In this document: positions 15,784 to 64,000 of the stretch, in pieces
Numbering within the stretch: the stretch's first letter is position 1
Layout: the number at the start of each line of letters is the position of its first letter
From: Azospirillum sp. TSO22-1
GTDB lineage: Bacteria > Pseudomonadota > Alphaproteobacteria > Azospirillales > Azospirillaceae
NCBI RefSeq assembly: GCF_003116015.1
Contig: NZ_LGQZ01000011.1
Coordinates: forward strand, 1-64,000
Reading direction: 5' to 3'
Length of the DNA: 64,000 nucleotides
Translations under genes and position numbers: made by a program
Notes under the pieces: generated by a model
Databases searched by the model: none
What the model saw: the letters and a program-made list of their open reading frames with translations, nothing else
What the model was told of the DNA's origin: nothing

Positions 15784-15816
15784 GGGACCATAGTCTCACA
15801 AACCGATCTTTCCGTC

Positions 15817-15979: not shown

Positions 15980-16348
15980 ATGACCCGTGCGCGCATTTCC
16001 GTTCCCCGACCGACCGACTCGCCCGGCGGCGTCCCCTTCGGCAGCGCCGAGGAGGCGTGGTTCTGGTCGGTCCAGGCGCAGGAGGCGCGGGCCGAGGGCG
16101 CGCGCTGCGCCGCCGGCCTGGGGCTGGTGCCGCGCCCCTGCGAGCCGTTCGACGTGATGCGCGCGGTGGACCGGCTGTACCGCCAGCGCCGGCTGGTGCG
16201 CGACCACCTGCACGTGCTGGTGCACTACGGCCGCCGCCTGATGCCGCCCGACCCCGACCGCTTCCGCGAGCAGCGCGCCAGCGTGCTGTGGCGCGAGGCC
16301 TTCGACCACATCGGCCCGCTGCTGCGCGACAAGGGCATCGTGCAGTGA
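15980..16348 (+). CDS. Phage-cassette hypothetical protein
   Basis: A 122-residue soluble protein, rich in arginine and aspartate, with a helical middle (AEEAWFWSVQAQEARAEGARC) and a C-terminal YGRRLMPPD...REQRASVLWREAF stretch. It resembles small DUF6362-like proteins found at the head of phage morphogenesis modules, some near terminases; that link is tentative. ATG 15980 has GGAG about 10 bases upstream; an ATG three codons earlier is too close to it. Its stop overlaps the next gene by four bases. Confidence 0.6.
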   Translation: MTRARISVPRPTDSPGGVPFGSAEEAWFWSVQAQEARAEGARCAAGLGLVPRPCEPFDVMRAVDRLYRQRRLVRDHLHVLVHYGRRLMPPDPDRFREQRASVLWREAFDHIGPLLRDKGIVQ

Positions 16349-16743
16349 GCGCCGCCGGCACCACCGCCGCGGCATCCCAGCCCGGCGCCTGGGTGGTGTT
16401 CTGCGGCCAGACGGAGCTGTGGTGGCTGCGCCTGCTGCGGCCGGGGTTCCGCCACTGCTTCGTGGCGCTGCACGACGGCCGGCACTGGGTGGTGGTCGAT
16501 CCGCTGGCGCCCTTCACCGACGTGGCGGTGCTGGACCTGCCGCCGGCCTACGACCTGCCGGGCTGGTTCCGCGCCCTCGGCATGACCGTGGTGCGGGCAC
16601 GCCTGCGCCGCGGCCTCGCCCGGCCGGCGCCGTGGGGCCCCTTCACCTGCGTGGAGGCGGTCAAGCGCGTCCTCGGCCTGCACGCCCCCTTCGTCCTGAC
16701 GCCCTGGCAGCTCTACCGCCGTCTGACGCGGCCGGGCGGCTGA
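16345..16743 (+). CDS. Phage-cassette hypothetical, possible cysteine-protease fold
   Basis: A 132-residue protein with a GTG start at 16345 overlapping the previous stop. The order of a histidine-containing strand (FRHCFVALHDG) and a later FTCVEAVKRVLG, which follows the catalytic-Cys pattern of papain-like/NlpC folds in permuted order, suggests but does not prove a peptidase or hydrolase. I do not recognise a named family. It is cotranscribed with the virion genes. Confidence 0.55.
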   Translation: MSAAGTTAAASQPGAWVVFCGQTELWWLRLLRPGFRHCFVALHDGRHWVVVDPLAPFTDVAVLDLPPAYDLPGWFRALGMTVVRARLRRGLARPAPWGPFTCVEAVKRVLGLHAPFVLTPWQLYRRLTRPGG

Positions 16744-16781
16744 CGCTCCTTCCCACCAAGCCCCCACCGGGAGACCCCCGC

Positions 16782-17270
16782 ATGGCCAATCTCTTCTCCG
16801 CCCCCCGGCCACCGGCGCCGCCACCGGCGCCGCAGCCGGTATACGTTCCACCTCCGCAGCCGGCTCCAGCCCCTGTTCCGGCCCCCGCCCCGGAGCCGAC
16901 GCCCGTCCCCGTCCCGACGCCCGTCCCTGCACCGGTTCCGGCCCCCGCTCCGGCGCCGGACCCCACGCCACCCGCCCCGGCACCGCAGCCGGCGCCGGCT
17001 CCCGCGCCCCAGCCGGAGCCGCCCTGGTGGGTGACCAATCCGCCGCCGCCGCCGGCCCCGGCTCCGGTGGTCGAACCGCCCGCGGCGACGCCCACCCCTA
17101 CCCCCACGCCGACCCCGGCCGAGCCGGACCCGGCGGCGGTGGAGAAGGCGGCGGAGGCGGCGATCCAGCGCCGGCCGCGCAGCCGCAGCGGCACGGTCGC
17201 CACCTCATGGCGCGGCGTGCTGAACCCGGACGCCGTGGTGCCCGGCCGCAAGCGCCTGCTGGGGGAGTGA
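16782..17270 (+). CDS. Proline/alanine-rich phage protein
   Basis: A 162-residue protein in which about residues 5-110 are almost only proline and alanine with periodic glutamate, glutamine, threonine and valine (repeats such as PAPAPAPEPTPVPVPTPVPA). This part will be extended and unstructured. The last ~45 residues are conserved-looking (RRPRSRSGTVATSWRGVL...RKRLLGE), like a short family of podoviral proteins ending in a T-L-L-G motif. The ATG at 16782 follows GGGAG by 8 bp. It ends 3 bp before the portal gene. Confidence 0.7.
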   Translation: MANLFSAPRPPAPPPAPQPVYVPPPQPAPAPVPAPAPEPTPVPVPTPVPAPVPAPAPAPDPTPPAPAPQPAPAPAPQPEPPWWVTNPPPPPAPAPVVEPPAATPTPTPTPTPAEPDPAAVEKAAEAAIQRRPRSRSGTVATSWRGVLNPDAVVPGRKRLLGE

Positions 17271-49869: not shown

Positions 49870-51087
49870 TTACGCGGCCAGCAGCTCCGCGTACACCGCC
49901 AGGGTGTCGGCGCACATGCGCTGCTTGGTGTAGCGCTCGGCGACGAAGGCCTGGGCGTGGGCGCCGATGGCGGCGCGCTGCCCGGCCGTCATCGACAGTG
50001 CCTCGTCCAACGCCTTGGCCAGCGCGTCGGCGTCGTCCGGCGGCACCACCCAGGCGGTCTCGCCGGGCAGCACGGTCTCCTGCCAGGCGCCGATGGCGGT
50101 GACGATCACCGGCTTGCCCATGGCCTGCGCCTCGACGATGACGCGGCCGAAGGCCTCCGGCTCGCGGGAGGCCGAGACCACGACGGTGGACAGCATGTAG
50201 GCGGCGGCCATGTCGCTGCAGTGGTCGGTGATGTGCACCACGCCGGCCAAGCCGGCGCGGCGCGCGCGCTCCTCCAGCTCCTGCCGGTAGCCGGAGCGCC
50301 CCTGGTCGGAGCCGACCAGCAGGCACACCACGTCCTTGCGGCCCAGCTTGGCCAGCGCGTCGATCATCACGGTCTGGCCCTTCCAGCGGGTCAGCCGGCC
50401 GGGCAGCAGGATGACCGGCCGGTCCTCCGGCAGCCGCCATTGGGTGGCCAGCTGGATCAGGCGGGCGGTGGTGACGCGTTCCGGCGCGAAGATCGCCGGG
50501 TCGTAGCAGCGGTGGACGAGGCGGACGGCCGCCGGGTCGACGTCGTAGTTCTTCAGGACGTGGTCGCGGATGAAGCCGGAGATGGCGATGACCCGCTCGC
50601 CGCGCGCCATCACCGAGTTGTACCAGCGCTTCAGCCCGTTGGAGAAATTGTACGGCGCATGGAAGGTGGTCATGTAGCGCGCGCCGGTGCGCTGCGCCGC
50701 CATCCAGGCGCTCCACGCCGGGGCGCGAGAGCGGGCGTGCACGATGTCCACCCCGAAGTCGCGGATGATCTGTTCCAGCCGCCCGGCGTTCTTGCGGATG
50801 ACCAGGGGGTTCTTGCTCTTCAGCGGCAGCGTGATGTGGGCGACGCCGGCGCGGTCCAGCTCGCGCACCATGGGGCCGCCCTCGGAGGCCACCAGCGGCG
50901 TCGCCCCGGCCTCCGCCAGCGCCAGCGCCACGTCGATGCAGCCGCGCTCGGCCCCGCCGGTCACCAGGTTGGGCAGCACCTGCAGGATCACCGGCGGCCG
51001 GCGGCCGGGCTGGCGGAAGGCCGCTGATCCCCCCGTGGGCGCATTGCCCGTTGCGTCGGCGGTGGTAAGGTGCGGATCCAGAATCAT
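49870..51087 (-). CDS. GT4 family glycosyltransferase
   Basis: A 405-residue GT-B enzyme. Motifs in order: VLPNLVTGGAERGCIDVALAL (N-terminal), a central GRLTRWKGQTVMIDAL, and the GT4 donor-site EPEAFGRVIVEAQAMGKPV (E-x7-E). It probably transfers a sugar for envelope polysaccharide or lipopolysaccharide. ATG 51087 is divergent from the hydrolase gene (29 bp), so both promoters share a short region. Confidence 0.9.
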   Translation of the reverse strand: MILDPHLTTADATGNAPTGGSAAFRQPGRRPPVILQVLPNLVTGGAERGCIDVALALAEAGATPLVASEGGPMVRELDRAGVAHITLPLKSKNPLVIRKNAGRLEQIIRDFGVDIVHARSRAPAWSAWMAAQRTGARYMTTFHAPYNFSNGLKRWYNSVMARGERVIAISGFIRDHVLKNYDVDPAAVRLVHRCYDPAIFAPERVTTARLIQLATQWRLPEDRPVILLPGRLTRWKGQTVMIDALAKLGRKDVVCLLVGSDQGRSGYRQELEERARRAGLAGVVHITDHCSDMAAAYMLSTVVVSASREPEAFGRVIVEAQAMGKPVIVTAIGAWQETVLPGETAWVVPPDDADALAKALDEALSMTAGQRAAIGAHAQAFVAERYTKQRMCADTLAVYAELLAA

Positions 51088-51116
51088 GATGCCCGAAACG
51101 CGAATGTGGTGAAGCC

Positions 51117-51908
51117 ATGAGCGAACGCGCGCACGCCCCGGCGGGCGGGCACAATAGCCTGACCCGCGGCGAGGCCACCATAGCCTATCGTCACACCCCC
51201 TCCTCTCGGCCCGGCGCGTCGCCGGGTGTGATGTTCTGCGGTGGCTTCATGTCCGACATGACCGGCACCAAGGCGGTGGCGCTGGAGGCCTGGGCGGCGA
51301 TGCGCGGCCTCGCTTACACGCGCTTCGATTACCAGGGCCACGGCGTCTCCAGCGGCCGGTTCGATGACGGCACGGTCGGCGTGTGGGCCGAGGACGCGCT
51401 GGCGGTGCTGGACCATGTGACGCAGGGGCCGCAGATCCTTGTCGGCTCCTCGATGGGCGGCTGGATCGCGCTGCTGGCCGCCCTGCGGCGGCCGGAGCGG
51501 GTGGCCGCGCTGGTCGGCGTGGCGCCGGCCCCCGACTTCACCGAGGATCTGATCTGGGATGCGCTGGGCGACGACGTCCGGGCCACGCTGCTGCGCGATG
51601 GCGCGTGGTGCCGCCCGTCGCAGTACTTCGACGATCCCAAGCCGGTGACGCTCAAGCTCATTGAGGACGGGCGGCGGCACCTGTTGCTGCGCGCCCCGAT
51701 CCCGTTCGCCGGCCCGGTGCGGCTGCTGCACGGCATGATGGACGCGGACGTGCCCTGGCAGACCAGCCTGCGCCTCGCCGATGCGCTGGTGGGGACCGAC
51801 GTGCGGGTGACGCTGGTGAAGGACGGCGACCACCGCCTGTCGCGCGACGCGGACATCGCGCTGCTTTGCCACACGGTGGGCGAGGTGGCGGACGAGTTGG
51901 CGCCATAG
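51117..51908 (+). CDS. Alpha/beta-fold hydrolase
   Basis: A 263-residue serine hydrolase. The nucleophile is S112 in GSSMGG (110-115); the oxyanion region is FCGGFMSDMTGTKA near 40-53; a catalytic aspartate in MMDADVPW near residue 205 and histidine in GDHRLS near 240 complete the triad. The class resembles acylglycerol lipases or depolymerases. Substrate unknown. It is divergent from the glycosyltransferase. Confidence 0.88.
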   Translation: MSERAHAPAGGHNSLTRGEATIAYRHTPSSRPGASPGVMFCGGFMSDMTGTKAVALEAWAAMRGLAYTRFDYQGHGVSSGRFDDGTVGVWAEDALAVLDHVTQGPQILVGSSMGGWIALLAALRRPERVAALVGVAPAPDFTEDLIWDALGDDVRATLLRDGAWCRPSQYFDDPKPVTLKLIEDGRRHLLLRAPIPFAGPVRLLHGMMDADVPWQTSLRLADALVGTDVRVTLVKDGDHRLSRDADIALLCHTVGEVADELAP

Positions 51909-51997
51909 GGCGAAGCTATCGCTGCGGTCCGGATTCGCGATTGGACCGCGCGAGCCGCGGCCGGCACTCTCCATCTGCGGCATTGATGGAGGGGGCC

Positions 51998-52210
51998 ATG
52001 GCCAAGACGTTGAGCTTTGCGTGCGTGCACTTCACGGTGGCGTTCACCCTGGGCTACCTGATGACAGGCAGCGTGGCGGTGGGTGGTGCGGTGGCGCTGG
52101 TCGAGCCGCTGTGCAACACGGTGGCCTTCCACCTGCACGAAAAGGCCTGGGCCTGGCTGCGCGAGCGCCGCGCCGGCGTGGCGGCGGAGCCGGCGATGGC
52201 CGCTGCGTAA
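51998..52210 (+). CDS. DUF2061 small membrane protein
   Basis: A 70-residue inner-membrane protein with two hydrophobic segments (about 5-25 and 30-48) and the family pattern FTVAFTLGYLMTGSVAVGGAVALVEP, partly visible. GGAGGGGGCC precedes ATG 51998. Role unknown. It lies 70 bp before the tRNA gene. Confidence 0.85.
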   Translation: MAKTLSFACVHFTVAFTLGYLMTGSVAVGGAVALVEPLCNTVAFHLHEKAWAWLRERRAGVAAEPAMAAA

Positions 52211-52279
52211 GGTGCGTTCGGCACCTCAAAACAGGGGCTTGCGATCCGCCGCGGGGATGGCTATAAACGCGTCCTCCGC

Positions 52280-52370
52280 GGAGGGGTGGCCGAGTGGTCG
52301 AAGGCGCACGCCTGGAAAGTGTGTATACCCCAAAAGGGTATCGAGGGTTCGAATCCCTCTCCCTCCGCCA
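52280..52370 (+). tRNA. tRNA-Ser (GGA)
   Basis: A 91-nt class II tRNA with encoded CCA (52368-52370). The acceptor stem pairs GGAGGGG (52280-52286) with TCCCTCC (52360-52366). The anticodon loop CTGGAAA carries GGA. The long variable arm (TATACCCCAAAAGGGTATC) is typical of serine tRNAs. It is the likely attachment-site gene for the adjacent Tn7-like element. Confidence 0.96.
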
Positions 52371-52397
52371 CGAATTTAGCCCAAGCAACTGGTTTGC

Positions 52398-52480
52398 TGT
52401 CGCTTTCGCCTTTAGGTGAGAATTGCGGCTTATAAGTGAGAGTGCGACGCGCATAAGTGAGACGAAACCGCACTCTCCGG
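52398..52480. mobile_element. Right end of the Tn7-like transposon
   Basis: TGT at 52398-52400, 28 bp past the tRNA CCA, starts a series of TnsB-site-like direct repeats with core (A)TAAGTGAG or TAGGTGAG at 52413, 52432 and 52453, spaced 20-21 bp. An inverted GAGAGTGCG/CGCACTCTC pair (52438-52446 / 52469-52477) overlaps them. The TGT terminus, repeat spacing and place next to tniQ-tnsABC are those of a Tn7 right end. The rest of the 52371-52753 gap shows only a weak inverted repeat near 52555-52590 and no gene. Confidence 0.75.
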
Positions 52481-52753
52481 ATCGGATTTCCCAAAGTCTT
52501 CCAACGAATTGATGGGGTGGTCGGGCGCCTCTGAGGAGTCGCGCGGCCTTCAATCCGTAATTCGTCGTCTCAATCCTGAAATTCGGATTCTTCTCGCCTA
52601 AAGGGATCACCGTCAGGATGGAGTCCTTCGGGACCGAATCACGCGGTGGTGTGCGGCGCGAAGCATGTGGCGACTGTCCGGACGTCTCCGCGACAACGGT
52701 GCCGCCGACCCGGATCATGGGGCCTTCCGGTCCAACGTTCGGGAGCCCTGGGG

Positions 52754-54049
52754 ATGCTGCCAGCCGCCGATGACCTCTGGCCGGGGCGGCCGCCCCTTCT
52801 GGAGGATGAGTCTTTTTCCTCCTGGTTCGCTCGCGTTGCCGCCGCCAACGGTCTGCGGCCTGCCGAATTGTACCGGCTCGTCCAGCCAAGCGGTGGCCTC
52901 CGTCCACGGGACCTCGACCGCTACGGCGACATCCATCTGCTGGGCGCCATGGCCGACAAGACCGGCGTTTCCAGAGAGGCTCTGGAGCAATCCACCTTCC
53001 GCCGCTGGGCCGGATGGGCGTTCGAGCGGGACGATGGCTTGGTCAAGCTGGACTGGCTACCGCCGGCCGGGCGGGAGAAGGCAAAGCGGTGCTTCGGCCA
53101 GCAGGTATGCCCGTCATGCTTGGCAGAAGACACCACTCCCCACCTGCGGCTGGAATGGCGCCTATCCTTCCTAACCGTCTGTCCGATGCACGGGCACCTT
53201 CTGCTCGACCGTTGCCCCGCCTGCAACGAGCCGTTCAGCATTCTGCGCCAAGAACGCCGGGAAGGCGTCTGCTGCTGGTCCTGTGGCGCCGACGTGCGCC
53301 GCTTCACAGGGGATCATCCGCCTGTCGATCCGATTCCGGTGCAGCAGAACCTGCTGGACACGCTGAATCAGGGATGGCGGACGCTGGGCAGCTACGGCCC
53401 CGTCTATTCGTTCGCGGCTTTGGAGATACTGGCGCTGATCGCCCGCCGGATCGCTGGCGGCAAGTATGCCTATGGGCTGAGGGAATGGATCAGCCTGCAC
53501 GAGCCCCGGCTGTCCCTGCCGCCCGAAACCTTACCACGGGTTCATGACTGGGCGTTGCTGACTCCGAGGGCCCGGTGCGTGCTGGTTGCCATGGCGCATC
53601 ACCTGCTCGGCGACTGGCCTCACCGCTTCATAGTTGCGGCGCGGTCTGTCGGGATGGCGAGCTCCTCCGTGTACAATCCGTCTAATGAGTACGTGCCCTT
53701 CGCCTACGCCCATGCCGTCGAGTGGCACCTGAAAGAGCCTCACAAGTTTGGAGCCCGCTACGAAGTAGCCTCTGCCAAGTCTGTTCTGGAGCGGCATGGC
53801 ATCAAGCCGACCTACCGGAACTTGAAAGAACTGGTCGGCACCAAGCTCGCCGCCATGAGCGAAATGGCGGAGCCGGTCGGGCAGGCCACTCCTTGGGGGC
53901 AGGGGCGGTACTGGAAGCTCGACGGTGTCTCGGCCGAGGTGAAGGAGGCCGCGCGTCACGCGGCCCATCGATCGGGCGAAAATGTCGCGGCTTGGCTAGA
54001 TAAAGTATTGCGGAAGGAGTTGAAGCTACCAGATATGCGGTTATCCTAG
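52754..54049 (+). CDS. tniQ: TniQ/TnsD-like target selector
   Basis: A 431-residue DNA-binding protein that selects the target site. The family opening EDESFSSWFARVAAANGL is at residues ~17-34; zinc ligands are C119, C122, C143, H148, C154, C157, C174 and C177. The C-terminus (392-424, VSAEVKEAARHAAHRSG...WLDKVLRKEL) resembles a short ribbon-helix-helix or helical module, unusual for TniQ. GGGAG lies 8 bp before ATG 52754. It is first in the operon, next to the right end, unlike Tn7. It probably recognises the tRNA-Ser gene. Confidence 0.9.
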   Translation: MLPAADDLWPGRPPLLEDESFSSWFARVAAANGLRPAELYRLVQPSGGLRPRDLDRYGDIHLLGAMADKTGVSREALEQSTFRRWAGWAFERDDGLVKLDWLPPAGREKAKRCFGQQVCPSCLAEDTTPHLRLEWRLSFLTVCPMHGHLLLDRCPACNEPFSILRQERREGVCCWSCGADVRRFTGDHPPVDPIPVQQNLLDTLNQGWRTLGSYGPVYSFAALEILALIARRIAGGKYAYGLREWISLHEPRLSLPPETLPRVHDWALLTPRARCVLVAMAHHLLGDWPHRFIVAARSVGMASSSVYNPSNEYVPFAYAHAVEWHLKEPHKFGARYEVASAKSVLERHGIKPTYRNLKELVGTKLAAMSEMAEPVGQATPWGQGRYWKLDGVSAEVKEAARHAAHRSGENVAAWLDKVLRKELKLPDMRLS

Positions 54050-54107
54050 TTTCGCGGGAGGGGTTGCGTATCGGATATTCCACTGGTTGTAGCTGTGGGG
54101 TCGTTCC

Positions 54108-54761
54108 ATGTCGGTCCGTAAAATCGGGCTCTGTTACCGAAGCGTCGGTGGTCGGGTGCCCATGGGGGCTGGCCGGGCGGCCGTCATGGTCGAATCGACG
54201 TTGGAGCGGGACTTCGCCCTTCTACAGCGGTTCGACCCGGCCGTTGCCGGCATCGAGGAGCAACCGGTGCGCATCGAGTACCGGGTCGGCCAGGGAACCA
54301 AGCGCCACTACGTTCCGGACTTTCTCGTGACCTACCAGGACGCTGCACGGCCGACACGGTTGGTCGAGGTCAAGTACTCCACCGACCAGCACCTGTTGAC
54401 CGGATCTCTGGAAGAGCGATTCGCCGCGGCCCGAGATTACGCCGCCGAGCGCGGCTGGGTCTTCGCGCTGGTGACCGAGAAGGAGATCCGCACCCCAAGG
54501 CTGGAGAACGCGACTTTCCTGCTTCCCTTCCGTGACCGGCCGCCAGATCCGGCATTTCGCGACCGGATGCTCGAGGCGACGGGCCGGGAACCGGTCACCG
54601 TGCAGGAACTGGCCGATCTCGTCGCCGGCGATGCCGGTGACCGCGCGCGGGTGCTGCCCAGTCTGTGGGCCTTGGTCGCGCGCTTCGAGATCATGGCGGA
54701 CCTCGACCAGCCGATCACCATGCGGACCGTGCTTCGGCGGCCCAGGAGAGGAAGCGCATGA
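54108..54761 (+). CDS. tnsA: TnsA endonuclease
   Basis: A 217-residue restriction-like nuclease that cuts the 5-prime ends of the transposon. Catalytic residues are visible: E33 (LERDF), D71 (VPDFLV) and the E87-x-K89 pair (VEVKYS). The C-terminal half is a helical domain that contacts TnsB/TnsC in the family. With TnsB it allows cut-and-paste movement. It overlaps tnsB by four bases (ATGA). Confidence 0.93.
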   Translation: MSVRKIGLCYRSVGGRVPMGAGRAAVMVESTLERDFALLQRFDPAVAGIEEQPVRIEYRVGQGTKRHYVPDFLVTYQDAARPTRLVEVKYSTDQHLLTGSLEERFAAARDYAAERGWVFALVTEKEIRTPRLENATFLLPFRDRPPDPAFRDRMLEATGREPVTVQELADLVAGDAGDRARVLPSLWALVARFEIMADLDQPITMRTVLRRPRRGSA

Positions 54762-56713
54762 CAAAGCGGTTCAGCTACAGTCCTGGCGCGGCCGTGAAGC
54801 ACCAGGGGCGCTCTTGCACCATTTTGGAGGCGGTCACGGCCTCGTCCGTTCTGATCGAGGACGCTGAGACGAAGGAGACGCAGGTGGTGCCGGTCTCCCA
54901 GCTGTCGTATCCGGATGGTCAGGAGAAGGCGGAACCGAAGCGGCTCCTGGACAGCCTTCCCGACGACGATCTGGCCGAGGCGAAGCGTCGCTTCGCCATC
55001 ATCAAGCCGCTGGTCCGCTGCGAGCGCCGCAGCCACGAGGACGTGAAGTGGGTGGCCGAGCAACATGGAATTGGGCTTTCCACGCTCTACCGCTGGATCA
55101 AGACCTACGAAGGCCGGCGGCTTATGTCCGACCTCGCTCCGCGGCGTAAGGGCAGGGCCATGCCCAAGCGCTTGGATCCCGCCATCGAGGCGGTCATCGA
55201 GAGCGTGATCAAGGAACTCTACCTGTCCAAACAGAAGGTCACCGGCGAGGAGGTGATCATCGAGGTCCATCGTCGCTGTCGGGTCGCCAAGCTGACCAGG
55301 CCGGCCGGAAGCACGATCCGTGATCGCCTCCGGGCGGTGGACCCCAGGGAGAAGGTGCTGAAGCGCGAGGGCAAGAAGGCGGCGCGCGACAAGTTCGGTT
55401 CGGTGAAGGGGGAGTTCCCCGGTGCCGATTCGCCGCTCGCCGTCGTGCAGATCGACCACACGCTGCTCGACATCATCGTGCTGGACGAGGAGATGCGTCT
55501 GCCGATCGGCCGCCCCTGGCTGACGCTGGCCATCGACGTCTTCAGCCGCATGGTGGTCGGCTATCACTTGTCGCTGGACCATCCGAGCGCCTTCGCCGTG
55601 GGGTTGTGCCTGTGCCAAGGCATGCTGGGCAAGGCGGCGGAACTGGAGCGACTCGGCATCAAGGGTGAGTGGCCGGTGTGGGGCAAGCCCCGCATGATCC
55701 ACTCCGACAACGGTAAGGACTTCCGCAGTTACCTGATCCAGGACACGCTGGACCAGCATGATGTACGCTACGAGTTCCGCCCGCCCAAGACCCCGCACTA
55801 CGGCGGACATATCGAGCGGCTGTGCGGCGCGCTGGGCAAGAAGATTCACGCGCTGCCCGGCGCCACCTTTTCCAACCCCAAGCAGCGGGGCGAGTACAAG
55901 TCCGAAGCCAAGGCAAAGATGACGCTGGAGGAGCTTCGGAGATGGCTCCTGAACCGTATCGTTGGCATCTACCACAACAAGGTTCATGAGGGGATAGGCT
56001 TCCCACCGCTGGCCCGGTGGAACGAGGGTATCGTCGGCAGCGACCGCATGCGCGGCCGTGGCCTGCCCGAGCCGATTCAGGACCCGCGCCGCCTCCGTCT
56101 GGACTTCCTACCCTTCATTGAGCGCACGGTACAGCCTGAAGGCATCGTCTGGGACAAGATCTGGTACCGCGACCCGTTGCTCTCCCAGTGGGTGCGGGCC
56201 GATGAAGGGCGCCGCCGGCGAAAGTTCAAGGTTCGGCGCGACCCAACCGATATCTCGAAGCTCTACTTCCTCGACCCGAGCCTGGGTGACTACGTGGAAA
56301 TCCCCTATAGGGACTATGGCCGCCCCTCAATCTCGCTGTGGGATTACCGGGCGGTCGAGGCCTACCTGCGGCGCCAGGGCAAGGCGGCGGAGAACGAGGC
56401 CGCCATCTTCGAAGCCTACGAAGAGATGCACCGCATCACGGCCGAGGCGGCGCAGCACACCAAGCGCGTGCGCCGGGAGCAGGCCAAGCGGGCAGAGTTG
56501 CGCAAGCATCGCGCCGCCCTGACGCTGGATCCGCCGCAGTCGCCAGAACCGGTGGCGCTGAAAACGCCCCCACCAAAAACGCCCCGTCAGCGCGAGGGAC
56601 ATCTGGCACTCGTGGTTGACAACGAGCAGCGAACGCCGGCCAAGCCTTCGACCTCCGCAACGGACTTCGACTTCGACGACAGTGAGATCAGGACGGGCGT
56701 GGAGGAATGGTGA
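54758..56713 (+). CDS. tnsB: TnsB DDE transposase
   Basis: A 651-residue transposase that cuts and joins the 3-prime ends. The N-terminal ~200 residues are helix-turn-helix DNA-binding domains. The catalytic triad is D233 (VQIDHTLLD), D317 (HSDNGKDF) and E353 (GGHIERL), with the usual 35-residue D-E spacing. A Mu-C-like barrel and a charged tail follow. The tail probably contacts TnsC. It starts inside the tnsA stop and its own stop overlaps tnsC. Confidence 0.95.
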   Translation: MTKRFSYSPGAAVKHQGRSCTILEAVTASSVLIEDAETKETQVVPVSQLSYPDGQEKAEPKRLLDSLPDDDLAEAKRRFAIIKPLVRCERRSHEDVKWVAEQHGIGLSTLYRWIKTYEGRRLMSDLAPRRKGRAMPKRLDPAIEAVIESVIKELYLSKQKVTGEEVIIEVHRRCRVAKLTRPAGSTIRDRLRAVDPREKVLKREGKKAARDKFGSVKGEFPGADSPLAVVQIDHTLLDIIVLDEEMRLPIGRPWLTLAIDVFSRMVVGYHLSLDHPSAFAVGLCLCQGMLGKAAELERLGIKGEWPVWGKPRMIHSDNGKDFRSYLIQDTLDQHDVRYEFRPPKTPHYGGHIERLCGALGKKIHALPGATFSNPKQRGEYKSEAKAKMTLEELRRWLLNRIVGIYHNKVHEGIGFPPLARWNEGIVGSDRMRGRGLPEPIQDPRRLRLDFLPFIERTVQPEGIVWDKIWYRDPLLSQWVRADEGRRRRKFKVRRDPTDISKLYFLDPSLGDYVEIPYRDYGRPSISLWDYRAVEAYLRRQGKAAENEAAIFEAYEEMHRITAEAAQHTKRVRREQAKRAELRKHRAALTLDPPQSPEPVALKTPPPKTPRQREGHLALVVDNEQRTPAKPSTSATDFDFDDSEIRTGVEEW

Positions 56714-57603
56714 TGCATCTTGAGCCGTTTGCTGGGGGCGGTTCGCTGGAACTGGGAATGTCTGCCGAAGACATCGCTACCCGGATTCGCCGGATCAGGA
56801 GCCCCCGCTACGTTGAATACGACACCGGAACGGCCGTGCTCGACCGGTTGGCTTGGCTGTACAACCACCCCAACGTGCCGAGACCGCCTTGCAGCCTGAT
56901 CTATGGCGATACGAACAACGGGAAGACGGCGCTCGCCTACAAGTTCGTGCGGGACCACAGCCCCAGCGAAGACAGTCCGGATTACGGCAAGCGCCCGGTG
57001 GTCTACCTCCAATCTCCTCCGTTCGCCGACGTGAACGGCTTCTACGACGCCATCCTGCGCGCCCTGAAGGCGCCATACCGTTCAACCGCCAGAGCCCAAA
57101 GCAAGTGGGACCAGCTTCTGGTTCTTCTCGGCGCGGTGGGGACGCGGGTGGTAATCGTGGACGAGGTCAACAACCTGCTGGTTGGCAAGGTCGACCAACG
57201 CTCGATGGTGCTGAACAGCCTCAAGAGCCTGAGCAACGAACTGAAGATATCCGTCGTCGCCCTGGGAACCCAGGATGCCGTGCGCGTCTTTCAGACCGAC
57301 CAGCAACTTGGCAACCGGTTCGAGCCCATGGGGATTCCCCGCTGGGCGGTGTCCAACGAATACGCCGTGTTCATTGGGCGCTTTGCCCAGGGGCTGCAGC
57401 TGAAGCAGGAAAGTAGCTTCCGCTCAAAAGAACTGGTTGGCCGGATCCACCGCTTGGCCGAAGGACTTACGGGCGAGACCTGCAAGCTGCTCGCTCTGGC
57501 GGCCGAGATGGCGGTGCAAAGCGGCCGGGAGGTCATCGACATGGAAACGCTGGACCAGATGCCTTGGGTGATGCCGAGTGAGCGGAGGAAGGCGGCGCGG
57601 TAA
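56713..57603 (+). CDS. tnsC: TnsC/TniB AAA+ regulator
   Basis: A 296-residue AAA+ ATPase that links target selector and transposase. Walker A is GDTNNGKT (65-72), Walker B VVIVDE (146-151), with a sensor/arginine-like GNRFEPMGIPRW later. It is short, like TniB and the TnsC of CRISPR-associated and tRNA-targeting elements, rather than the long Tn7 TnsC. I chose ATG 56713, with GGAGGA 7 bp upstream and TGATG overlap with tnsB. Confidence 0.94.
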   Translation: MHLEPFAGGGSLELGMSAEDIATRIRRIRSPRYVEYDTGTAVLDRLAWLYNHPNVPRPPCSLIYGDTNNGKTALAYKFVRDHSPSEDSPDYGKRPVVYLQSPPFADVNGFYDAILRALKAPYRSTARAQSKWDQLLVLLGAVGTRVVIVDEVNNLLVGKVDQRSMVLNSLKSLSNELKISVVALGTQDAVRVFQTDQQLGNRFEPMGIPRWAVSNEYAVFIGRFAQGLQLKQESSFRSKELVGRIHRLAEGLTGETCKLLALAAEMAVQSGREVIDMETLDQMPWVMPSERRKAAR

Positions 57604-57621
57604 ATCTCACCGCCTGGGGCT

Positions 57622-57733
57622 TGTGGCGTGTCCCATGAAGTGAGGCTTGGGTCGTATAAAATGAGAACGGGCGGGGCCGCAAGGTGCCGCCCGTTCTCAT
57701 CTTATGGGTAACACTACCTAAGCGGAAGCGTCT
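57622..57733. repeat. Second transposon-end-like repeat cluster
   Basis: TGT at 57622 followed at the same 18-bp distance by AAGTGAG (57638-57644) and 21 bp later by AAATGAGAA (57659-57667), the same orientation as the right end next to the tRNA; about two thirds of the first 45 bases match. Inverted copies follow: CATAAGATGAGAA read on the minus strand (57694-57706) and CGCTTCCGC...TTAGGT (57716-57730), like the outer part of the right end. Two arms form a perfect 14-bp palindrome (ATGAGAACGGGCGG). A left end interrupted by IS66 is one reading. Confidence 0.55.
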
Positions 57734-57738
57734 GGGTT

Positions 57739-57890
57739 GTAAGCCTCGGCTGGGAGCTGCGGCGATTGCCGGTTGACGTTGGCGTTCAGGCTGCGGACGC
57801 TGCGGCAATGTTCCAGGGCAGCAGGTCGGCGATGCCGTTGATCGGGTGATCAGCGATGCGGCCGAGGACATCGCGCAAGGTGCTGGCGCT
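57739..57890 (-). pseudogene. IS66 transposase (TnpC) C-terminal remnant
   Basis: A minus-strand frame encodes only the last ~30 residues of an IS66 TnpC, including DVLGRIADHPINGIADLLPW. A GTAAGCCTCGGCTG terminus, the usual IS66 inverted repeat start, is at 57739. The rest of the element is missing, cut by the IS630 remnant. The insertion lies in or beside the transposon end-like repeats. Confidence 0.75.
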
Positions 57891-57904
57891 GACCTGTTCG
57901 GAAC

Positions 57905-58038
57905 CACCCGGCGCCGTTACTCACTGGACGGGCCGGGCGCTGGCCAAGACGGTCGGCATCAGCCTGCGCGCCGTTCAGCGCATCTGGGAGGCCAAGCGCG
58001 CACGATCCTCCGGTCCAACGATGACGCTGACGGTCTGA
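57905..58038 (+). pseudogene. IS630 family transposase remnant
   Basis: A short frame encodes THWTGRALAKTVGISLRAVQ and RIWEAKRA, the second helix-turn-helix of IS630 transposases, then ends at a stop. No catalytic domain remains. Sequence to 58099 shows nothing else. Confidence 0.75.
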
Positions 58039-58099
58039 GCCATGCCGACAGAATCGCACGTCGGCGCCGCTCTATGAATCCTATGTCTGCGTCAATGCA

Positions 58100-58681
58100 C
58101 TAGCGACTTTCGATCGAGGTCTCCGTGGGCAGACCGGCAGCCATCCAGGAGGTCTGCCCTCCGCGATACCACTTCACGTTGGTATAGCCCAAAGCCACAG
58201 CGCGCAGAGAGGCGTTGTACGACAGCCAGCACTGGGCACTCAGGCAGAAAAACACGAGCGGCTTTCTACGGTCACCTGCGGTAAGGGTGTTCAGGCGCTC
58301 GGCCATACGGACCTGCACCCGGTCGTTGAGGTTCTCGCCCAACCCCGCACCGTTCAACCAGAGTGCCGTGGGAATGGTGGCGTGGGCGCCGCCTCCGAGC
58401 ACGTCGATGAGCACCGCGTCGGGGCTCGAGGCGATCAGCGACAGCACTTCTCCGGTCGTGATCGTTTGTGCGCCAGGCACCACGATGGGGGTTTTGCTGT
58501 GATAAGCTCCTGTGAAAACGCTATCGCGCGGTGGCACCTCCCAATTCACCGTTTCATCAGCGTAATTGCTGCCTGTTAGGACGATCTTTCCGAGTTGGGC
58601 GCGGTCGACCGGTGCCGTCGTCTGGCATCCGCCGAGCACCGCGGCGGCCAAGCTGACGAGGATGATGAAGATGCGGGGCAT
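58100..58681 (-). CDS. Rhodanese-like lipoprotein with Cys-Trp motif
   Basis: A 193-residue exported protein: lipoprotein signal with lipobox LGGC (residues ~16-19), then a rhodanese-like domain. The active-site region FFCLSAQCWLSYNA has C-x4-C-W, like the proteins named for a CXXCW motif in PQQ-linked alcohol oxidation, though here spacing differs. The segment VLIDVLGGG fits the rhodanese fold. It probably sits in the periplasm. It begins 3 bp past the stop of the upstream minus-strand gene, so they form an operon. Confidence 0.78.
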   Translation of the reverse strand: MPRIFIILVSLAAAVLGGCQTTAPVDRAQLGKIVLTGSNYADETVNWEVPPRDSVFTGAYHSKTPIVVPGAQTITTGEVLSLIASSPDAVLIDVLGGGAHATIPTALWLNGAGLGENLNDRVQVRMAERLNTLTAGDRRKPLVFFCLSAQCWLSYNASLRAVALGYTNVKWYRGGQTSWMAAGLPTETSIESR

Positions 58682-58684
58682 GGT

Positions 58685-59107
58685 TTACTCGCAAAAGCCG
58701 TTGATGACCCAGCGAAAGGCGCCATCAGCGGCACGCTGGCATTGGAGGGTGACGCCGCGGCAGAGGGGATGTTCAGTGATCGGCATTCCGCACGCCGCGG
58801 ACGGACCACTCATGGAAACTGGAAAGAACGACGCCGTCGTGCCGCCACCTTGCGTGTCTGTGTAGTACACCCGAATCATCCGTTGCGTGGCAGCAGGCTT
58901 TGCTTCGTCGGCCGGACTGCCTTCGGGCAGCGGTACACGACTGGCACCTTCGATGGGCGCCTGGGTAGACGCCAACGTACCTGCATCGAGAGGAATCTGA
59001 GGAGGTGCGTCCATTGCGAGCGCGCCGGTCCTCATGGACAGCACACACCAACCGGCTAGGAGTAGATGCCGGAGCGTTGGACGTGCAAGGGCGGTTGGGT
59101 CGGCCAT
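58685..59107 (-). CDS. Exported hypothetical protein
   Basis: A 140-residue protein with a signal peptide (about residues 1-32, ending near GALAMDA) and a C-terminal part with three cysteines (AACGMPITEHPLCRGVTLQCQ) plus a terminal cysteine (NGFCE). It is probably periplasmic with disulfides. GGAG lies 8 bp upstream of ATG 59107. It is upstream of the rhodanese gene. Function unknown. Confidence 0.68.
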   Translation of the reverse strand: MADPTALARPTLRHLLLAGWCVLSMRTGALAMDAPPQIPLDAGTLASTQAPIEGASRVPLPEGSPADEAKPAATQRMIRVYYTDTQGGGTTASFFPVSMSGPSAACGMPITEHPLCRGVTLQCQRAADGAFRWVINGFCE

Positions 59108-59250
59108 CGTGATTCTCCGGCGCAGAATGTGGCTGTCCTTCGCCGTCAGCCGGTTGAGCCATCGTTTCCGAGCGATGGCATCCGCGAGCATCGAGCGACT
59201 TCAGATATATCTTATGGTGATCGGAACGGCAACACTGTGCCATCCAGCGG

Positions 59251-59511
59251 ATGGTCAACGTTGCCGTTCAGTTTGGCGCCATCTTGCGAGATCTGCGCGT
59301 CGCCAATAGCCTCTCCCAGGAGGAACTGGCCTATCGTGCAGGCATGAGTGTACCTTACCTCAGCGACCTGGAGCGCGGGCGGTCGAATCCGTCGCTGGCG
59401 ATGATCGTCGATCTCGCTCTGGCGCTCGGCGTTCATCCGTCCCAGATGCTGGAAGCGTTGAAGATCGACGCCGCCGGGCAGCCGTCCCGCCGCAAGCGTC
59501 CCAAGGAGTGA
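59251..59511 (+). CDS. XRE family transcriptional regulator
   Basis: An 86-residue HTH_3 regulator: VANSLSQEELAYRAGMSVPY and LSDLERGRSNPSLAMIVDLA, residues ~17-56, form the full Xre/Cro DNA-binding domain. It is divergent from the exported pair. It may control them or the downstream genes. Confidence 0.9.
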   Translation: MVNVAVQFGAILRDLRVANSLSQEELAYRAGMSVPYLSDLERGRSNPSLAMIVDLALALGVHPSQMLEALKIDAAGQPSRRKRPKE

Positions 59512-59878
59512 GCGGTTCGGCCCGCCTACGCCTTCTCTGGGGGCTCTTCGGCGGGCCGGTTCCCCACATCTCCTGCACCACGCCCAGGGACGTGACCTGA
59601 CCCGCTGCACCCCGCTTGTGTCCACATCCGACCGCAGGAGCATGCCGCGGGTGGGGACACGACCCGTTGACCAAGGACCATTCTGAAATAGCTCATGTGG
59701 GATGGTGCATTGCGATGAGCTTCCAAAATTGCATAATTAGACCGGTCATCTGCGCCGCATGTGTATGTTCTAAGAGTGTCTTCGAGACAACGCTGCGGTG
59801 GGCTTATTACTATAAGAGCAGTATCAACCATTTTCAGTCGGTCTTCGCCTTGTAGAGACGGCTTTGGGAGATACCAGA
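59512..59878. other. Intergenic region with no supported gene
   Basis: No convincing frame with a ribosome site is seen. The right part (59720-59840) is more AT-rich (AAAATTGCATAATTAG, TTATTACTATAA) and probably holds the promoter of the small gene pair that follows. Confidence 0.5.
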
Positions 59879-60109
59879 ATGGCCAGTGAACAGAAGCAAT
59901 CCAAAGCTAAGGAAATTCTGGCGCGCTCCGGCGTCGGCAATCCCCCGCGTGACGACGACATGCTGCATGCTGAGGCTCCACCTGAGGCGGGAACAGAGCC
60001 GCAGTCGCTGGTAGACATGCTGCGTCAGAACGTTCCGGAGGCCGACTTCGACTTCGAGCCGCCTCGGCTCGGTGATATAGTGACTGACACATCGGAGGAG
60101 CCAGAATGA
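59879..60109 (+). CDS. Hypothetical protein, first of coupled pair
   Basis: A 76-residue acidic, probably disordered protein (ends EPPRLGDIVTDTSEEPE) with a helical segment PQSLVDMLRQNVPEADFDF. GGGAG stands 8 bp before ATG 59879. Its stop overlaps the next start (ATGA). Family unknown; the size and acid content would fit an antitoxin or small regulator but there is no direct evidence. Confidence 0.6.
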   Translation: MASEQKQSKAKEILARSGVGNPPRDDDMLHAEAPPEAGTEPQSLVDMLRQNVPEADFDFEPPRLGDIVTDTSEEPE

Positions 60110-60303
60110 CCAACGAGAAGCGGAAGCCTGCTGGCGCGTTGGGCGTGAAGAACATCGCTGACAACTTTGACGCTCCTGATGCCGCCATCGTCGCCCTCTT
60201 CGAAGGCGAGGCGGAGTTCCCGAAGGGGCTGAGCACACAGGATGGAGAGACCCTCAGTACGACGGCGGCAGCCCCTCCGAAGGATGGCGAAGCCATTCGA
60301 TAA
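60106..60303 (+). CDS. Hypothetical protein, second of coupled pair
   Basis: A 65-residue protein (begins TNEKRKPAGALGVKNIADNF) translationally coupled to the preceding gene by ATGA. It is small, soluble and of no known family. The pair lies within the accessory region between an XRE regulator and an IS66 fragment. Confidence 0.55.
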   Translation: MTNEKRKPAGALGVKNIADNFDAPDAAIVALFEGEAEFPKGLSTQDGETLSTTAAAPPKDGEAIR

Positions 60304-60459
60304 GCGGAACGCAATCGATGGTGCAGAACGGGGCACCGGATTTGAGAACATTGATCATGGGCTGACTGGGCGCAACGGCCCCGACGCACTATGTTGCGAC
60401 CATTGTCGTACACGAGCCCTGGTCATGCAGCGTCGTCGCAGCGAGGAGGCCTTGGCTTT

Positions 60460-60481
60460 CCGCTAGGTAGTCACCTAGCGG
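60460..60481. promoter_or_regulatory. Palindrome in accessory region
   Basis: CCGCTAGGT / ACCTAGCGG with a 4-base centre lies just before a possible small frame at 60491. It could be an operator. The gap 60304-60750 otherwise holds no well-supported gene. Confidence 0.45.
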
Positions 60482-60490
60482 AGAAAGGCC

Positions 60491-60742
60491 ATGTTCAGAA
60501 TTCGCCGTGTGCCGGTCCCTGGCACTGGCAAGCCGCGTCTTGGGCGTCTCGTCGGCCAGATGCGGCGCTATCCACGAACGCTTGCAGAGCTGCGCTGGTC
60601 CGCAGCAGCCGAGGTAAACGATGACAGTGTGCGGATCTCCGGGCGACTACGCCGGCCGCCTACGGCATGGGATGACCAATGGCGATCCGATCGCGGGCAT
60701 CGAAACTGGAAGCGACAGCGCCGACATCAGTGGAGGGGGTGA
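60491..60742 (+). CDS. Doubtful small arginine-rich gene
   Basis: An 83-residue frame preceded by GGAG 7 bp before its ATG. The first half (LGRLVGQMRRYPRTLAELRW) is regular, the second is arginine/tryptophan-rich and looks out of frame. No family. It may be a remnant of a gene cut by the IS66 insertion at 60751. Confidence 0.3.
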   Translation: MFRIRRVPVPGTGKPRLGRLVGQMRRYPRTLAELRWSAAAEVNDDSVRISGRLRRPPTAWDDQWRSDRGHRNWKRQRRHQWRG

Positions 60743-60847
60743 TGAGCAAGGTACGCATCCGCTGAGCGCCGCCTTGGCAAGGTAGAGTGCGGCGTCCGAG
60801 GTTTGCGGGGCGCGTCATCGCGCGGACGCAAACGAGTGGCAAACGTC

Positions 60848-61260
60848 ATGGCTTACCAGCGTGTCGAGGTTCTGACGGGGACGGAGCGGCGGCGGAACTA
60901 CACGCCGGCGGAGAGGGTGCGGACGGTCGAGGAGGCGTTCCGGCCCGGCGTGGTGGTGACGGAGGCGGCCCGCCGGTTCGGCGTGCACGAGAGCCTGCTG
61001 TATCGTTGGCGGCGGTTGATGACGGCCTCCGGCACCGCCGTGGCCGAACCGTCCACCTTTGTCGCGGTGACCATCACGCCGGAACCGGTCGCCACCGAAC
61101 CGCCAGCGCCGGAACCTCCTGGATCATTGCCGCCTCCGGTGATGCCGGCCGCGCGCCCTGCGGCGATCCTCGAGGTCATCCTGCCCGGCGGGCGCGACTG
61201 CGCCTGGAAGGGCCGGTCGATCCGGCCTTGGCGGCGGCCGTCGTCGGCGCCCTGGCATGA
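60848..61260 (+). pseudogene. IS66 tnpA, frameshifted
   Basis: The N-terminus (RNYTPAERVRTVEEAFRPG then VTEAARRFGVHESLLYRWRR) is the IS66 TnpA/IS3-type helix-turn-helix. Near 61185-61195 the frame changes: the expected C-terminal ending ([20 protein letters not shown]) is in another frame and stops at 61260, where tnpB begins. One indel explains it. Confidence 0.75.
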
Positions 61261-61361
61261 TCCCGGTGCCGAGCGGCGTGCGGGGCTGGCTGGCCAGCGG
61301 CCACACCGACATGCGCAAGGGCTGGGCGAGCCTGGCGCTCCAGGTTCAGGAACGGCGGTAG
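61257..61361 (+). pseudogene. IS66 tnpB, truncated
   Basis: Starts [20 protein letters not shown], the TnpB N-terminus, and overlaps tnpA by ATGA. It ends after only 34 codons because the element is cut, at a TAG in foreign sequence. Confidence 0.8.
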
Positions 61362-61365
61362 TGTC

Positions 61366-61722
61366 TCAGTTTGAATTTCCGGTAGCCTGCCTAGCGCGCT
61401 TGATGTTTCTCGCGACGCCGACCGCCACGTCAATGTCGCGAAACCACAAGCCGTCGATGTAAGCGATAGCGTCCTCGAACCGGAGGAAGACGGCGATCTC
61501 GCTGAACGTATGCAGCGGTTCGTTTGGGCCAGCTTTCTGTCGCGGCTTGTACTTGGCTACCGTGCGCTCTCCAGAGCGCCCCTCGATGGCGTTGTCATAT
61601 GCCGATACGATTGCGTTCAGAAACCCCTTGAGTTGAGGGTATGCATCCTCAATCTCCCTCATCTGACGCTCGAAAGGGTCAGACGCGCGGACAGCGAAAC
61701 GAAGCCTTATGCCGTCGCCCAT
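61366..61722 (-). CDS. Putative partner (toxin?) of Panacea protein
   Basis: A 118-residue basic protein. The middle reads SAYDNAIEGRSGERTVAKYK, then LHTFSEIAVFLRFEDAIAYIDGL. I do not recognise a family. Its first 16 bases overlap the end of the DUF4065 gene, so the two are translationally coupled in the order antitoxin-toxin. Toxin function is inferred from this pairing only. The final codons reach the IS66 break, so the native C-terminus could be altered. Confidence 0.6.
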   Translation of the reverse strand: MGDGIRLRFAVRASDPFERQMREIEDAYPQLKGFLNAIVSAYDNAIEGRSGERTVAKYKPRQKAGPNEPLHTFSEIAVFLRFEDAIAYIDGLWFRDIDVAVGVARNIKRARQATGNSN

Positions 61723-62249
61723 TCCGGAAATTCTTCTTTGTCGTAAAATGTAATTGCGTGTCCGGCCGGCTTAACAGCTTCAAGCCATTTAGACTTAAAC
61801 CAGTCCGCAATAAGCTCAATATCAATAGGCTCCTCCGAGTTCTCTCCTCTCGGAATGCCTTTTTCGTTCCTCACAATAGCCCAGGGGGTTCCCGGTAGAT
61901 GCGTCAACCCCACCAATGTTGGGGCGTCGAACTTGGAGAACACGTCATAGACGAGCCGTATCATTCCGAGAACGGACTCGGACAGAGTCGATCCCAGTCT
62001 GGTGTCAATAACCGCCGGGCTCACAGGCCCATCGCCGAACCGCTTGAGGCGCCGATAAACGCTGGGAAGGGCCGGCCCGAACTTCCATGCTTGGAAATTC
62101 TCATCAAAAAGCGGGGCGTCCACCAATGCCAAGTGCAGCCCCTCCAGAAAATACAGCATCTTCTGGATTTCCAACGGCGTTAGCGGCTTATGGGCCTCAA
62201 TGCCCAAGCCGATAAAGCAGTCAGTGGCTTCACGAACAGCGTCGCTCAT
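61707..62249 (-). CDS. Panacea/DUF4065 (SocA-like) antitoxin
   Basis: A 180-residue protein with the SocA/GepA-type fold: PLTPLEIQKMLYFLEGLHLA (residues ~21-40), then WKFGPALPSVYRRLKRFGD, and the C-terminal LTHLPGTPWAIVRNE. These match the Panacea antitoxin domain that neutralises many unrelated toxins. ATG 62249 has no strong ribosome site. The IS1-family gene lies 57 bp upstream, so the promoter may have been replaced. Confidence 0.85.
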   Translation of the reverse strand: MSDAVREATDCFIGLGIEAHKPLTPLEIQKMLYFLEGLHLALVDAPLFDENFQAWKFGPALPSVYRRLKRFGDGPVSPAVIDTRLGSTLSESVLGMIRLVYDVFSKFDAPTLVGLTHLPGTPWAIVRNEKGIPRGENSEEPIDIELIADWFKSKWLEAVKPAGHAITFYDKEEFPEWATA

Positions 62250-62305
62250 AAGGCGAAGAATCGCACTTTCGGGGGGAAGAGGCAACCGCAAACGGGGCGA
62301 AGCCG

Positions 62306-63196
62306 TTAAGCTACCGCCTCCTTCTCCCGCTTCTTGTACGGCCCGCGCTTCTTCGGCGGCTCCGCCCGTGCATCGATGGCGATGGCGATATCCTCCATGC
62401 TCCACAGCCGATCCGTGACGCCGGCCGCCATGGCGGGGGACACTTTCAGGCTCTTATGGATGCGGGTGAAGTTGTAGAACATGAAGTAGAGCGCCAGCGC
62501 GTGGATGTGGTTGTCCCGCTTCTTGGAGAAGGCGTTGGTGAGGCGGGTGAACCGGCGCATGCTCATCCGCATCGTGAGGTTCTGGCGTTCCACGTAGGAC
62601 GTGGAAACGTGCTTCAGGTCGGGGTTGCCCTCGACCTTCTGTTTGCGGATGCCGGTGCACTCCGCCGGGCTGTAGCGACCCTTGTGAGCCTCCGGAATGT
62701 CGCCGGAGAGCTTGATGAGTTGGGCGAAGTCCACATCCCCGCCGAAAGCCCCTTCCACCGCCTCCAAGTACGCCTTGTGCCCATCGGTGGTGAGCTGCAC
62801 TCGGTTCGCCAGCCGGCCGCACAGGTCGTCCATGAGCGCGATGGGGGACTGGCCGGAGCGGTCGCCCACGAAGTAGGAGACGATCATCTTCGTGTCGGCA
62901 TCCAGCGCCGTCCAGGCCCACACGTCGACGGCATCCTCGCCAGCGGCCTTGGCCTTTTCGACGTTCTTCTCCTTGGCGTAGCAGAATGACCAAATCTCAT
63001 CGCACTGGATGCGGCTGGCGCGCACGTTGCGCACCAGTTCGTCATGCAGCGCGAGGCAGGTTTCCCCCGCGTCTACCAGCAGCTTGGTCACGGTGTTGAT
63101 CGACACGTCCGTCACGCGGGAGATCGACCGCATGGACGATCCCTCGCACAGCATGGAAAGGATCTGGACGCGCTTGGCGAGAGGAAGCTTGTTCAT
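62306..63196 (-). CDS. IS1-family transposase
   Basis: A 296-residue single-frame DDE transposase with helix-turn-helix at ~10-45 and catalytic D66 (IQCDEIWSF), D138 ([10 protein letters not shown]) and E203 ([10 protein letters not shown]). It appears intact. The right boundary may be near 63290-63300; I could not confirm inverted repeats. The insertion is recent-looking, between the Panacea gene and the ATPase gene. Confidence 0.88.
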
Positions 63197-63368
63197 GGCT
63201 GTAGTGTAGGTGGTCAGCACTCCTCTGCCAAGCAAAAAGTTCATTTTCACGGCAGTGCCACGGGGTTACTGCCGGTCTCCTATTGAATTAGCACCACCAC
63301 TATCGTATGGATAGGCGGAAATCGGCGGCACGCGGCGCGCTCGGTGGCGGTGTTTGGCGGCAGCCGGA

Positions 63369-64000
63369 ATGACGGAGAGCCGGGCAGTGAGCAACAGTCG
63401 CGAAATGAGAAGGCTTGCGGCAAAGTGGCAGCAACGTACTGGCTGGCCGCAGTTCCTCGAGTCGCTTGAGATTACTGGGCTGCGTGGGTGGGACGGGCAG
63501 AGGGTTCCATTTGAATTTCCGATTGTCGCTCTAGTGGGCGAAAATGGAACAGGAAAAAGCACTGTTCTACAGTGCGCAGCGGCTTCGTACCGGCCGACCA
63601 ACAACGCACCTCCAGAACGGGAATCTTGGTTTGCCTCTGACTTCTTCCCAAAAACAGTTTGGGAAGACCCCCGTGGCGCCAAGATAGTTTCCACGGTGCG
63701 GCAGGGCAAAGAGACGAAACCCTATGATGTCCGCCTTCCAGGTGAGCGCTGGAGAGGCAACCCAGAGCGGCCCCAGCGTAATGTTAGTTACATCGATTTG
63801 CGTCGCATTCAGCCAATTTCCGCGAGGATTGGCTATAGCAAACTCGCTAAAGAAGCGAGGCTTGAGAAATCCGCACAACATTTTGATAAGGACCGACTTG
63901 CCCGCTTTAGCCAGATCATGGGCTGGCCATACGAAAGCGCAAGAATTGCTGTGACCGATGCTTCCGAAGATAGAAAGGTGCCCGTGTTCGGTCAGCAAGG
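63369..64000 (+). CDS. AAA/SMC-like ATPase, partial (runs off window)
   Basis: At least 210 residues, open at the right edge. Walker A GENGTGKST is at 57-65, after LEITGLRGWDGQRVPFEFP, which is the SMC/RecF/OLD N-terminal layout (ligand-strand before P-loop). The base composition is lower in GC than the core genes. Starts at 63369 (ATG), 63387 (GTG with GGAG upstream) or 63404 are possible. ATPases of this class are common in defence systems; this one's partners lie outside the window. Confidence 0.75.
   Translation, partial: MTESRAVSNSREMRRLAAKWQQRTGWPQFLESLEITGLRGWDGQRVPFEFPIVALVGENGTGKSTVLQCAAASYRPTNNAPPERESWFASDFFPKTVWEDPRGAKIVSTVRQGKETKPYDVRLPGERWRGNPERPQRNVSYIDLRRIQPISARIGYSKLAKEARLEKSAQHFDKDRLARFSQIMGWPYESARIAVTDASEDRKVPVFGQQ

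Follow-up and report, generated by a model that had tools for sequence, protein, structure and literature searches.

A Tn7-like transposon with tniQ as its first gene, inserted past a serine transfer RNA gene, and a family of relatives that very probably homes to transfer RNA genes through protein recognition

The stretch of DNA analyzed here (the window) comprises 64,000 nucleotides (nt) of Azospirillum sp. TSO22-1 and forms part of contig G000:C54, which is 97,474 bases long. It holds the left part of a Tn7-like transposon that lies just past a serine transfer RNA (tRNA) gene and whose transposition operon begins with tniQ. Together with its relatives, the element points to a family of transposons that very probably targets the region 3' of tRNA genes through protein recognition. 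A more specific reading, which we hold tentatively and rate a little short of even, is that of a proteobacterial Tn7-like family free of clustered regularly interspaced short palindromic repeats (CRISPR), in which a ribbon-helix-helix tail of TniQ acts as a swappable tRNA-gene reader, switched among Ser, Gln and Phe targets, with an origin apart from that of the cyanobacterial tRNA-homing TnsD proteins. The insertion site comprises the following features:

52280 to 52370, plus strand: tRNA-Ser(GGA), the attachment gene, intact, CCA included
52393 to 52397, plus strand: left copy of the target-site duplication TTTGC (right copy at contig positions 79383-79387; compare the empty site)
52398 to 52465, plus strand: left end, TGTCGCTTTCGCC..., with three TnsB-like repeats, at 52412, 52432 and 52453
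52398 to 64000, plus strand: transposon body within the window, extending on to G000:C54:79382

The left end opens with TGTCG, and its first base, 52398, is 28 nt beyond the CCA of tRNA-Ser(GGA), with 27 nt between. The downstream contig was scanned for ACA followed by the left-hand 5-mer, and a single right-end site was recovered, ...GAAACCGACA followed by TTTGC, where the element terminates in CGACA with 79382 as its last base. The whole element therefore measures 26,985 bp and runs past the window edge; an earlier note on this DNA had taken 57733 as its end. As in other Tn7-like elements, the termini read TGT...ACA, carry arrays of TnsB-like repeats and are flanked by a 5-bp duplication. 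The left end has three repeats and the right end two, the first at position 15 from either end, against base-shuffle means of 0.066 (left) and 0.055 (right) with one mismatch allowed, for a pattern fitted to these very sites.

The uninterrupted site, AGCCCAAGCAA-CTGG-TTTGCTTGGGCTTTTT, is present at all seven same-genus loci examined, which were picked from 45 genomes by the requirement that the left-flank match reach the junction. At these loci the two flank matches share 5 nt, at six of them as aligned and in G026 only after extension beyond one mismatched base. Behind the tRNA gene stands a terminator-like hairpin, recognized by eye, whose second arm is split by the element. The termini, duplication, repeats and empty site establish a true insertion junction and ends beyond chance, as the earlier note had proposed for a Tn7-like element next to tRNA-Ser.

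The operon at the left end consists of the following features:

52754 to 54049, plus strand: tniQ, 431 amino acids; TniQ core, two zinc fingers, a helix-turn-helix-like region and a C-terminal tail
53903 to 54031, plus strand: TniQ tail, residues 384-426, probably ribbon-helix-helix (weak matches)
54108 to 54761, plus strand: tnsA, 217 amino acids (PF08722, PF08721)
54758 to 56713, plus strand: tnsB, 651 amino acids (PF09299), overlapping tnsA by 4 nt
56707 to 57603, plus strand: tniB/tnsC AAA ATPase, 298 amino acids (PF05621)

All four genes are open and lie in the inward order tniQ-tnsA-tnsB-tniB; given a 4-nt overlap between tnsA and tnsB and one of 7 nt between tnsB and tniB, we read them as one operon. 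This agrees with the earlier description of an intact, inward-reading operon with tniQ before tnsA, unlike Tn7, and with a zinc-finger TniQ. The profile matches listed, together with PF06527 for tniQ, are above cut-off; the rve domain of tnsB (PF00665) reached 30.1 bits against a cut-off of 32.6. The element thus carries a TnsB DDE transposase, a TnsC/TniB ATPase, a TniQ selector and a TnsA endonuclease, and motifs in TnsA, TnsB (D, D, E) and TniB (Walker) are presumably catalytic. TnsA and TnsB are encoded by separate open reading frames (ORFs) in the window, and their matches stand side by side likewise in the relatives. The tniQ start was moved from GTG 52646 of the long ORF to ATG 52754, because G009, G029, G034 and G066 have a stop between the two.

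Relatives were sought with tnsA and tniQ in 82 genomes of the order, with tniQ in 385 of the class, and with a TniQ alignment in 398 genomes of the phylum plus 18 of the order of G373. Seventeen loci carry this type of TniQ, and 16 of them sit at the 3' end of a tRNA gene, on the tniQ side. The phylum search gave no further members: of its eight matches other than the window, seven were examined and were without the tail motif and one (G633) was partial. The TniQ matches G077 and G073 (short contigs, with no tRNA there), G000:C220, G037:C39 and the partial G633, as well as weaker TnsA matches, were excluded from both family and comparison counts. The tRNA genes occupied are:

Ser-GGA: window, G373, G827, G828, G290, G185
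Ser-CGA: G009:C1, G029
Gln-TTG: G034, G009:C2, G010
Gln-CTG: G207, G047, G050
Phe-GAA: G062, G066

Eight targets are thus Ser, six Gln and two Phe. The operon is not found at random sites, and the question raised earlier, whether it always lies at a serine tRNA, is answered by a wider range: serine-only targeting is ruled out by the Gln and Phe sites. An inverted repeat of the serine variable arm, ATACC...GGGTAT, was likewise rejected as the common mark; it occurs in six of the eight serine loci, and Gln and Phe tRNAs are not expected to carry it.

The full order tniQ-tnsA-tnsB-tniB is kept in 13 of the 17 loci. The remaining four are truncated or disrupted: the tRNA-Ser copy on G009:C1 and G029, where tnsB matches end at residues 321 and 123, respectively, and no tniB match was found in the tract; G047, at a contig edge; and G050, a 3-kb contig with a decayed tniQ. 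At three loci only the tail of a tRNA gene adjoins the element, namely its last 17 nt in G010, 15 nt in G185 and 17 nt in G050 (the last judged by eye against another genome's tRNA-Gln). A complete tRNA gene lies upstream of the tail by about 7.2 kb in G010 and about 8.5 kb in G185, an arrangement in which an integrase-type island may later have entered the same tRNA gene, between tRNA and transposon. At the 13 intact sites, TTCGA of the T-loop stands upstream of the joint in every target gene, and the spacing from T-loop to joint is 50-59 nt in 11.

Several observations weigh against homing of the whole family to tRNA genes. Spacing is longer in G047 (68 nt) and G290 (88 nt), the left end of the latter, like that of G185, having been placed by resemblance alone. 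No convincing right end was found for G010, G029, G034 and G062, nor for G066, which gave chance-like candidates only, and the G009 tRNA-Ser tract had three right-end candidates, of which one ending GAAACCGACA was adopted. Finally, one of the 17 loci, a copy on G009:C1, lies inside an apparent protein gene and not at a tRNA. This copy is what an unspecific process would produce, with tRNA-flanked copies retained because they are harmless. Yet zones behind tRNA genes make up only about 0.07% of a genome (assuming 80 tRNA genes and 60-nt zones) and hold 16 of the 17 loci; the elements share a single orientation, their spacings span no more than 10 nt in 11 of 13 measured, and 12 comparison loci, described below, are not at tRNA genes. 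We therefore give unspecific insertion scarcely any probability.

The protein-gene copy is 99.95% identical to the tRNA-Gln copy of the same Azospirillum brasilense genome (G009), with 1 mismatch and 4 gap openings across 13,549 columns, and the two are flanked by different duplications, CGCAA at the protein gene and ACTTC at tRNA-Gln. This near-identity suggests recent movement of the element in A. brasilense. At the protein-gene site, TTCGA occurs 47 nt from the joint, which may be chance.

The tail at the C terminus of TniQ, on weak matches probably a ribbon-helix-helix (strand-helix-helix), is present in 15 of the 17 family loci (12 rows of set A1, G827, G828 and the protein-gene copy on G009:C1; set A2 comprised 94 of 113 TniQ proteins). 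In G047 the TniQ match reaches into the tail, and the decayed tniQ of G050 shows none. As a comparison we used 12 loci with related tnsB, tniB and tniQ (L045-L048, L096 and L185-L191, L185 being without a tnsA match), in which a six-frame scan for the motif WKL[DQE]G[VI] found no tail. None of the 12 has a tRNA within 17-20 kb, in stretches that may stop short of the elements' ends. TniQ is encoded last in 11 of them and before tnsA in one, L096 (G053), which has a further TniQ match upstream (the two at about 3307-3762 and 8402-9190) and lacks the tail motif, with no tRNA across its 20 kb; gene order alone therefore does not track tRNA sites. Across these loci, gene order is a poorer predictor of a tRNA site than the TniQ tail. 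The earlier suggestion that TniQ selects the tRNA directly is strengthened by the tail-less comparison loci, and it is still from such associations that we infer TniQ and its tail to be the tRNA reader.

A reader of this kind could in principle recognize the universal T-loop sequence alone, so that any tRNA gene would be eligible. The presence of TTCGA in 13 of 13 intact targets, and its occurrence upstream of the protein-gene insertion, fit this idea. In the genome of the window, however, where 55 tRNA matches were obtained and two weak ones left aside, 36 of 44 distinct tRNA sequences (ARAGORN, one probably false) contain TTCGA by count of those listed, yet only five tRNA species of three amino acids serve at the 16 tRNA sites of the family. 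Close relatives also have a common target amino acid. In a TniQ tree of 16 of the 17 family loci (without G050) and 4 of the 12 comparison rows (four others gave no suitable ORF), supported clades with one target amino acid comprise a Ser-CGA pair, a Ser-GGA trio and a Gln group of four that includes the protein-gene copy. Another supported clade of four mixes Ser-GGA, Gln-TTG and Ser-CGA, with Phe loci as nearest neighbors, and several deeper forks are open. Because few species are used and clades share a target amino acid, the T-loop alone seems insufficient for target choice. Specificity has changed at least twice. We consider recognition of the T-loop alone unlikely.

An RNA guide might instead pick the tRNA, as in type V-K and some I-F3 CRISPR-associated transposons (CASTs), with Cas genes lost or acting in trans. 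Among solved chains, TnsB is closest to that of Tn6677 (I-F3; E value, 6.8e-44), followed by Tn7 (8.6e-15) and 9bw1_M (4.7e-13), which we take to be from the Peltigera element, and TniB lies at a similar distance from V-K TnsC (2e-8) and I-F3 TnsC (2.3e-8). The usual attachment sites of type V-K CASTs are moreover tRNA genes, according to the sections available of PMC11406308. Against a guide, no TnsE, second TniQ or Cas protein was found among the 10 larger cargo proteins (Pfam, PADLOC; smaller cargo ORFs lay outside the scan), as the earlier note had observed. No Rfam family matched in a 20-kb cargo stretch, and an RNA scan of window positions 50000-64000 turned up only tRNA-Ser(GGA). When the attachment region was compared with the element in three elements, the longest exact match was 10-13 nt, a length that shuffled controls reach as well, and a guide RNA as tRNA selector was rejected on this basis. 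We regard RNA guidance as highly improbable and retain protein recognition.

In the mechanism that we propose, TniQ would bind a particular tRNA gene in its 3' part and would load TniB/TnsC, the short AAA ATPase, immediately downstream of the tRNA. The TniQ tail, probably a ribbon-helix-helix, would probably supply extra DNA contacts for homing. TnsA and TnsB would then insert the element in a single orientation, 50-59 nt past the T-loop at most sites, leaving 5-bp duplications and the tRNA coding sequence unharmed; because TnsA is present, transposition is expected to be cut-and-paste. Lineages would have switched which tRNA serves as target.

Several known systems resemble this family in part. 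Tn7 has TnsA, TnsB, TnsC and a TniQ/TnsD selector, makes a 5-bp duplication and reaches a safe site by a conserved gene, all of which are paralleled here. The present element differs in its tRNA target instead of a site downstream of glmS, the lack of a detected TnsE, its gene order and its distant TnsB. The core of Tn6677 (type I-F3 CAST) provides the nearest solved TnsB and likewise has separate TnsA, TnsB and TnsC, whereas here no Cas effector genes were found among the larger cargo proteins, tniQ lies ahead of tnsA, sites are at tRNA genes and TniB is no nearer to I-F3 than to V-K. Tn5053/Tn402 share a TniB-type ATPase and TniQ; Tn5053 has a resolvase and is not known to carry TnsA, while TnsA is present here and no resolvase was found among the proteins scanned (an NCBIfam scan covered 9 of 10 cargo proteins and the insertion sequence [IS] transposase). 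Tn5053 targets plasmid resolution sites, in the part available of PMC11406308, instead of the tRNA sites seen here.

The element also resembles type I-B2 and I-D CASTs (PmcCAST, CyCAST, McCAST), for which the available sections of PMC10293859 and PMC11406308 give guide-free tRNA homing by TnsD, a TniQ-family protein, as established, and guide-based homing for V-K. CyCAST inserts 30-33 nt beyond the tRNA end in the text available of PMC10293859, and in our element 27 nt separate the CCA from the joint, so that both insert tens of nucleotides past the tRNA 3' end. In those CASTs TnsA is fused to TnsB, and CRISPR-Cas and a second TniQ are present (PMC11406308, in the same sections), whereas our element has separate TnsA and TnsB, one TniQ found, no Cas found, tniQ first and a TniQ with a further tail. 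In its probable way of homing the family resembles the I-B2/I-D branch, but it lacks the fused TnsAB of that branch. Its TnsA and TnsB are unfused and no CRISPR was seen, which would make it a second kind of element beside the tRNA-homing TnsD systems described in the literature available to us. Transfer RNA genes are landing pads chosen repeatedly by mobile elements, and the family offers a clean comparative set, with one operon type, several tRNA targets and a tail not found in the comparison loci. Such a set could yield a testable rule for protein-guided tRNA homing, also for guide-free insertion tools; were the tail truly a swappable reader, the family would offer naturally occurring, site-specific inserters of large DNA that work with protein alone.

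Among the relatives, tnsB of G034 is interrupted by an inserted element; in L039 an insert of about 5.5 kb (about 11565-17045) lies in tnsB with inverted ends TGCAGATTCCGA/TCGGAATCTGCA. Transfer RNA 3' tails of 15-17 nt beside the transposon end, with the full tRNA 7-9 kb away in two of the cases, were noted for L044 (403-477 and about 7660), L093 (19221-19310) and L078 (about 826-842).

The cargo begins directly behind the operon:

57604 to 64000: start of the cargo, with a rhodanese-like gene, a SocA/Panacea gene, an IS1-like transposase and the start of a PtuA-like AAA ATPase

The AAA ATPase, from window position 63354 to contig position 64928, resembles PADLOC HEC-04 (E, 6.9e-41) and PtuA and is possibly a defence gene. 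Beyond the window, a minus-strand cargo cluster (G000:C54:70579-78083) encodes two HSP90-like ATPase proteins, a protein whose CxxxCxxC motif is like that of radical S-adenosylmethionine enzymes (by eye, with no family match), a weakly mad8-like protein and an unknown 382-amino-acid protein. A palindrome at 57656-57705 was considered as the right end and rejected, since it also occurs at two other places in the same genome and the real right end is about 21.7 kb further. It was not found by blastn in the other family loci searched. Its arms contain a TnsB-site-like ATAAAATGAGAAC, its counterparts at G000:C220:26618-26695 and G000:C208:4780-4854 are 85-87% alike, and one of these two places lies about 7 kb from another tnsA.

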